Source: Leptolyngbya sp. CCY15150
Lineage (GTDB): Bacteria > Cyanobacteriota > Cyanobacteriia > RECH01
Length of the DNA: 47,564 nt
Assembly (NCBI RefSeq): GCF_016888135.1
Contig: NZ_JACSWB010000240.1
Coordinates: 1-47,564 of the forward strand
Direction: 5' to 3'
The position numbers were made by a program, and so were the translations under genes. The notes under the pieces were generated by a model. That model made no database searches. It was given only the letters and a program-made list of their open reading frames with translations, and had not been told where the DNA came from. Every line of letters starts with the position of its first letter. Positions within the stretch are counted from its first letter, which is position 1. Positions 33,617-34,409 of the stretch are shown one piece after another.

Positions 33617-33624
33617 AAACGGTT

Positions 33625-33736
33625 GACGCTGGATAGAGGTAGATATCGATAAGTATCGGTAGGTATCGGTAGGTATCGGTGACGCTGGATAGAGGTAGAT
33701 ATCGATAAGTATCGGTAGGTATCGGTAGGTATCGGT
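33625..33736. repeat. Two perfect 56-bp tandem copies with inner 10-bp repeats
   Basis: The 56-bp unit starting GACGCTGGATAGAGG covers 33625-33680 and is repeated exactly at 33681-33736. Each unit ends with several ATCGGTAGGT or ATCGATAAGT decamers. It lies between the DUF1565/SPOR gene stop and the adenylate kinase gene start. Confidence 0.95.
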
Positions 33737-33842
33737 AGGGACATCTCCTCTCGACCCGCGATCGCCCTTAGCGCTACCCTAGGCAAGAGGGCCTCGGTCA
33801 GGGGCTATGGTGGTGTCCGTTTATAAGGGCGTAGGAGTCAGT

Positions 33843-34409
33843 GTGAAATTAATTATTCTGGGTGGGCCCGGAGCCGGCAAGGGCACGCAGGCCAGTCAGC
33901 TATGCCAATTTTTAAGCATTCCCCATATTTCTACGGGGACGATTTTGCGGGAGGCGATCGCTGCCCATAGTGACTTGGGGAAACAGGTGCAGGCTTATGT
34001 GGCACAGGGCGAATTTGTTCCCGATAAGATCATGATTGAGCTGATTCGTCAGCGATTGCAGCAGCCCGATAGTCAGCAGGGGTGGTTGCTGGACGGCTAT
34101 CCCCTGACGGCGTTTCAGGCGGAGGAACTAGACTTTTTGCTGGACTCCTTAGAGCAGCGCATTGACTGGGCCATCTGGTTAGAGGTGCCCAATGCGGTGT
34201 TGGTGGAGCGATCGTTGGAGCGATCGCGATCGGATGATCAGCCGGATGTGGTGCATCGTCGCCTGGAATTAATCCAAGAACGGACGGTGCCCATTTTGGA
34301 CTACTACGGCTACCGCAAACGGCTGCTGAAGATTGATGGCAACCAATCCATGGAGCAGGTACAGCAGGCGATTCGCCAAGCTCTTGGCCAGGGAAGTACC
34401 GAAGCCTAG
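33843..34409 (+). CDS. adk: Divergent adenylate kinase paralogue
   Basis: A 188-residue short-LID adenylate kinase-like protein. The P-loop GGPGAGKGTQ is at 7-16. Other parts align with Adk: HISTGT, LREAIAAHSDLGKQV, GEFVPDKIMIELIRQRL, GWLLDGYPLT, and RSDDQPDVVHRRL. Two normally conserved residues differ: STGD is STGT (Thr33), and DGFPRT is DGYPLT, so the Arg that contacts AMP is Leu88. AMP recognition may be altered, or the protein may prefer another nucleoside monophosphate. The start is GTG at 33843, with AGGAG (33833-33837) five bases upstream; an ATG 36 bp earlier is out of favour. It lies outside the ribosomal-protein operon that usually holds adk, so a second adk probably exists elsewhere. 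Confidence 0.85.
   Translation: MKLIILGGPGAGKGTQASQLCQFLSIPHISTGTILREAIAAHSDLGKQVQAYVAQGEFVPDKIMIELIRQRLQQPDSQQGWLLDGYPLTAFQAEELDFLLDSLEQRIDWAIWLEVPNAVLVERSLERSRSDDQPDVVHRRLELIQERTVPILDYYGYRKRLLKIDGNQSMEQVQQAIRQALGQGSTEA

Follow-up and report, generated by a model that had tools for sequence, protein, structure and literature searches.

A second adenylate kinase of Leptolyngbya sp. CCY15150 with leucine in place of the AMP-phosphate arginine

The window gene and the canonical copy

Adenylate kinase is a standard model for arginine-driven phosphoryl transfer, and a gene of Leptolyngbya sp. CCY15150 raises the question of what such an enzyme can still do when Arg88, at the AMP phosphate, has been replaced by leucine. 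The gene lies on the forward strand at 33843-34409 of the window (the whole 47,564-nt stretch of DNA analysed) and, judged by sequence and profiles, encodes a complete adenylate kinase of 188 aa with a short LID, an adk2-type paralogue. It begins with GTG at 33843 and ends with a stop codon at 34407-34409, and an AGGAG ribosome-binding site (33833-33837, forward strand) lies 5 nt before the GTG and is identical in two sister genomes; an earlier note, made from the letters alone, had reported the same start and site. An alternative in-frame ATG upstream (33807) would give a longer protein, and at the column of the window GTG, 55 of 56 related paralogues (see below) have GTG or ATG. Just upstream of the gene is a tandem block of 57 bases in two identical copies (33624-33680 and 33680-33736), which consists internally of short GGTAGGTATC-like repeats.

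The P-loop GGPGAGKGT (residues 7-15; 33861-33887, forward strand, as are all motifs that follow) is intact, including Lys13, and had rightly been called perfect. STGD is read as STGT (residues 30-33; 33930-33941), with Thr33 in place of the usual Asp/Glu, and DGFPRT as DGYPLT (residues 84-89; 34092-34109), with Leu88 in the place of Arg88, both as described in the earlier note. The loss of Asp33 is real, but the motif in ordinary enzymes is STG[D/E], and Asp33 is less strict than the note implied: among 73 canonical-side sequences, residue 33 is Asp in 56, Glu in 16 and Tyr in one. Arg36 (33948-33950) is kept, so that of the two AMP-phosphate arginines expected together in an adenylate kinase only one is present. 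The LID/catalytic segment (34209-34262) retains R123, R127, R129, D131, D132 and R140, the equivalents of E. coli R119, R123, R156, D158, D159 and R167; E. coli numbering is used for these residues from here on. An AlphaFold model built from a 40-sequence alignment has a mean pLDDT of 90.3, with weaker values in the LID blocks (71-79) and at the C-terminus (66), and all 50 of the PDB matches listed for it are adenylate kinases.

Profile scores place the protein above the adenylate kinase cut-offs of PF00406 (155.1 vs 26.8), TIGR01351 (181.5 vs 168) and NF001381 (200.5 vs 187). Against NF002700, which describes the canonical cyanobacterial enzyme, it scores 230.9, below the 262-bit cut-off. A UMP/CMP kinase identity was rejected (TIGR01359, 122.6 against a cut-off of 207.6). 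The window gene is not the only adk of the genome: a second copy, on contig C164, scores 292.6 with NF002700, is 42% identical to the window protein, and lies among genes recognised from their sequences as those for SecY, InfA, RpmJ, ribosomal proteins S13 and S11, and RpoA. The earlier proposal of a paralogue outside the ribosomal operon, with a canonical adk to be searched for elsewhere in the genome, is thereby borne out. In Synechocystis, a second adk is sll1059. The gene named adk in PMC7242066 is sll1815.

Phosphate-site arginines in the paralogue clade

A table in a survey of P-loop NTPases (PMC9599734) has the phosphate acceptor of structure 3SR0 coordinated by Arg150, Arg85 and Arg36. 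Aquifex R36, R85 and R150 correspond to R36, R88 and R156 of E. coli and to R36, L88 and R129 of the window protein, a matching that rests on the D+4 position and on the next arginine of the LID lying 11 residues away. The three are not an exclusive acceptor-clamp set, since R150 is also listed at the ATP gamma-phosphate (PMC9599734), Arg156 is grouped with the ATP-phosphate arginines in PMC3369945, and Aquifex R161 (E. coli R167) also touches the AMP phosphate (PMC11835391). In passages of PMC3369945, Arg88 hydrogen-bonds the AMP phosphate and is called strictly conserved, in agreement with the contact named in the earlier note, while Gln92 reads adenine N6 and the Lys57 backbone touches the AMP ribose. 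In the closed state, Arg36 pairs with Asp33, and Arg88 with Asp61 and Thr175 (PMC4325324). The Aquifex mutants R36K, R85K and R150K still turn over, at an observed 0.3-14 per second; by the authors' estimate, the wild type exceeds the rate of this step by over three orders of magnitude (PMC11835391).

From the residues that it keeps and those that it has lost, the window protein is read here as a maintained second adenylate kinase, still directed to adenine, in which the acceptor clamp would be weakened and which would be slower and/or of lower affinity for AMP; the probability given to this reading is about 0.48.

The protein belongs to a clade of cyanobacterial paralogues marked by the signature TAFQAEE (56 distinct sequences). 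The clade was delimited by a split for which 35 canonical sequences served as the anchor and which placed 62 sequences on the paralogue side and 73 on the canonical side; a midpoint-rooted split (45 vs 90) proved to be misrooted and was replaced by it. Six of the 62 that lack the signature were dropped, namely L016, L019, L029, L030 and L157, which have all three arginines, and L159, a fragment of a thioredoxin fusion that has Cys88 and Gly156, while L094 (TLAQAEE) was counted among the paralogues because of where it falls in the tree. Length excluded L158 and L160, and fragments shorter than 166 aa were filtered. Fifty-two of the 56 sequences come from 51 of the 291 genomes of the class and four from another search; the paralogue is thus present in at least 51 of 291, a lower bound as some matches were not fetched. 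The loci are best matches rather than a random sample, paralogues being chosen by similarity to the window protein and canonical loci largely with canonical profiles, a choice biased towards those that are well conserved. Support for the split is moderate to good, at 1.0 (canonical side) and 0.74 (paralogue side) in a first tree, 0.79 in a larger one, and 70 by ultrafast bootstrap. Among the matches listed from the open-licence literature, taken by titles and the starts of abstracts, no paper has the paralogue as its subject, although it may be published elsewhere; none was found in that literature on sll1059 as an adenylate kinase, on adenylate kinase R36, R88 and R156 together, or on adk with RNase PH in cyanobacteria.

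Losses among these arginines are widespread in the clade, a point missed in the earlier note: exactly one of R36, R88 and R156 is gone in 31 of the 56 paralogues, none in 25 and two in none, whereas all three are kept in 73 of 73 canonical-side sequences. R36 is replaced in seven (His in five, Gln and Tyr in one each), R88 in four (Leu in three, Cys in one) and R156 in 20 (Leu in 14, Ala in four, Glu and Asn in one each). By parsimony these are about six events in all: one for R36, in a group supported at 99, two for R88, in adjacent lineages with weak support (41-75) for their order of branching, and three for R156. Under independence, double losses would be expected in about four of the 56 against none observed, but the comparison cannot stand as a test and is not put forward as significant; with only about six tree events, the absence of double losses is not statistically secure. 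Since about half of the second copies examined lack one of the three arginines and the main enzymes examined keep them all, the second copy of the window may have been retuned, either to work more slowly or to regulate. That the repeated, lineage-dependent loss of exactly one acceptor-phosphate arginine represents a selected kinetic or sensory retuning and not decay is possible, if doubtful. Were it true, the paralogues would form a naturally occurring series of mutants in which a textbook enzyme lacks a single arginine.

The columns typical of the paralogues include Gly8 (53 of 56), Tyr86, Ala90, Phe91 (55), Glu95 (56), Phe98 (55) and Ser124 (55), and that five of these (Gly8, Phe91, Glu95, Phe98 and Ser124) are better conserved than R36, R88 and R156 would suit a pseudo-enzyme or nucleotide sensor, one that would bind ATP/AMP or ADP and report the energy charge via protein contacts, with the TAFQAEE helix as the contact surface and catalysis irrelevant. 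The cost of an Arg to Lys change in a normal enzyme, about three orders of magnitude in rate (PMC11835391), points the same way. Yet the paralogues keep R119, R167 and D159 in 56 of 56, D158 in 55, R123 in 54 and Lys13 in 52, which is stricter than a pure sensor would need, and a sensor is considered unlikely. The changes reach beyond the acceptor side, since D84 is Glu in 28 of 56 paralogues and Lys13 is Arg in four. The latter are L037, from the lineage neighbouring the genus, which also carries Cys88, and L043, L057 and L074.

The Thr33/Leu88 pair and the gene neighbourhood

Four genomes of the window's order were examined, three of them of the same genus; the fourth, a draft from another genus, has no match to the window protein or to NF002700. 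Among the 56 paralogues, Thr33 and Leu88 occur together only in the window's genus, in three of three genomes. Outside it, Thr33 is found once (L094, which has Arg88) and Arg88 is lost once (L037, Cys). As far as these sequences go, the pair is a genus-level trait, so that the Thr/Leu pair, whose conservation among cyanobacterial paralogues the earlier note had put forward as a check, is constant within one genus but not across the paralogues. Columns 58 and 88 are the sole internal ones at which the genus departs from a residue that 85% or more of the remaining 53 paralogues have in common: position 58 is Phe in the genus (34014-34016 in the window, forward strand) and Leu in 50 of these 53 and in 73 of 73 canonical-side sequences, and Arg88 is present in 52 of the 53 and again in all 73.

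The two changes are no sequencing accident, since three genomes carry both and one of them (G312) encodes them by synonymous codons, ACA rather than ACG for Thr33 and TTG rather than CTG for Leu88. The G312 draft, in 1230 contigs, yielded the paralogue alone, and no canonical copy was seen in it. A contig search with the window protein gave a single named relative, Leptolyngbya sp. DLM2.Bin15, with a protein identical to that of genome G292. The nine variable positions among the three genus sequences all lie outside the active-site motifs, and dN/dS of the paralogue within the genus is 0.05-0.09 (three genome pairs), which places it under purifying selection.

These values bear on whether the second copy is a redundant duplicate that drifts under relaxed constraint while the canonical enzyme bears the load. 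The lineage-specific losses of catalytic arginines would fit such drift, as would the higher dN/dS of the paralogue than of the canonical adk for the same pair of genomes (0.08 vs 0.03, G000 and G292). However, dN/dS remains low throughout the genus, Leu88 and Thr33 persist in G312 despite the synonymous codon changes, and the paralogue is found in genomes sampled across the class; that all 56 are open frames of 181-202 aa counts in the same direction, but weakly, as shorter fragments had been filtered beforehand. Drift is accordingly judged quite unlikely, and a maintained, weakened kinase remains the preferred reading. As a separate observation, synonymous divergence between G000 and G292 is lower in the paralogue (0.23) than in the canonical adk (0.64), which may indicate that members of the genus have exchanged the region of the paralogue.

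Neighbouring genes were compared at 38 paralogue loci, the window and 37 of 40 fetched (the other three being canonical), several of which end at contig ends; one representative per cluster was named by Pfam and the remainder by BLAST clustering. In 19 of the 38, the paralogue is closely followed by a co-directional RNase PH gene; 16 have a divergent CobO-like gene (PF02572) upstream, and ten a dCTP deaminase gene. None of these three occurs beside the paralogue in the genus of the window. There adk2 is followed by a convergent Rieske oxygenase gene, and a conserved operon partner for the window gene was ruled out in the genus. The CobO-like gene, at L066:4909-5457 and at 15 other loci, encodes a protein that seems, in the one sequence read, to lack the usual P-loop glycine-lysine motif. 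RNase PH yields nucleoside diphosphates, and from this product and the position of its gene, a link between the paralogue and nucleotide salvage is possible. That the protein phosphorylates a different acceptor (a nucleoside monophosphate other than AMP, or an adenine compound whose phosphate group differs) appears distinctly improbable, for although the phosphate-site arginines are altered in the paralogues, Phe58, changed in the genus, adjoins Lys57 with its backbone at the AMP ribose (PMC3369945), and RNase PH and dCTP deaminase genes adjoin the paralogue in some other clades, 55 of 56 paralogues retain the adenine-reading Gln92 and 45 of 56 Thr31, and the window protein falls far short of the UMP/CMP kinase cut-off.

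A third family of Adk-like genes was also noticed (L158 and L161-L168, with L159 partial), with open frames of about 300-330 aa in which an Adk domain, with neither the LID Asp pair nor a Lys where P-loop residue 13 aligns, is followed by a thioredoxin with WCG[SP]CK in most. Pfam reports ADK and Thioredoxin on the L163 protein, and the family looks like a fusion of a pseudo-adenylate kinase with thioredoxin. At E 1e-40 or better, it was found in eight of 116 class genomes, two of them via the thioredoxin part only, and was absent from the window's genome at E 1e-40; no paper on such a fusion was found in the open-licence literature.

Proposed role and comparison with known enzymes

In the preferred reading, that of a maintained adenylate kinase with a weakened acceptor clamp, ATP and the acceptor adenine would be bound as usual, and the change of Arg88 to Leu would loosen the hold on the acceptor phosphate. 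That the acceptor base is still adenine is argued from the retention of Gln92 and Thr31 in most paralogues. Since Arg36 contacts Asp33 when the enzyme is closed (PMC4325324), Thr33 would remove its partner, and Arg36, thus freed, may do part of the work of Arg88. The enzyme is predicted to be active, with its handling of AMP weakened, and would probably act as a slow and/or low-AMP-affinity kinase beside the canonical one. The replacement of Arg88 by Leu is harsher than the published Arg to Lys changes, so the kinase activity of the window protein may be almost nil. Reduced AMP affinity eases the AMP inhibition of E. coli Adk at intermediate AMP, and weaker AMP binding costs activity at low AMP (PMC11770808). 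The second copy could perhaps serve as a kinase that resists AMP inhibition, or as one that acts only at high AMP or ADP.

Of the interpretation in the earlier note, the paralogue, the Arg88 contact and the canonical adk elsewhere stand; the strictness of Asp33 does not, and the residue pair is conserved in one genus only. The other substrate or regulatory role that the note suggested would be a mere possibility. Neither of the findings that it named as refuting it came up, as the genome has another adk and no kinetics of such family members were found. A maintained natural adenylate kinase protein without Arg88 has been found, and its clade, in which different lineages lack different members of the arginine trio, provides a ready-made collection with which to ask what role the cyanobacterial second Adk plays and how far the grip on the acceptor can be weakened. 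Automatic 'adenylate kinase' labels on such copies may mislead metabolic models.

The canonical cyanobacterial Adk (NF002700 / PRK02496, in the order secY-adk-infA) has the fold, short LID, P-loop and LID residues in common with the window protein, but unlike the paralogues, the 73 canonical-side sequences all keep R36, R88 and R156 and lack the TAFQAEE signature. Among known structures, the short-LID bacterial enzymes of Thermus (3cm0) and M. tuberculosis (1p4s/2cdn) resemble the window protein in length and fold, and we take them to have retained the AMP-site arginine. The closest counterparts to the altered sites are the Aquifex mutants R36K, R85K and R150K, which concern the same three positions that the natural paralogues change one at a time; these are laboratory exchanges to Lys, whereas the paralogues carry Leu or Cys at R88, His, Tyr or Gln at R36, and Leu, Ala, Glu or Asn at R156.
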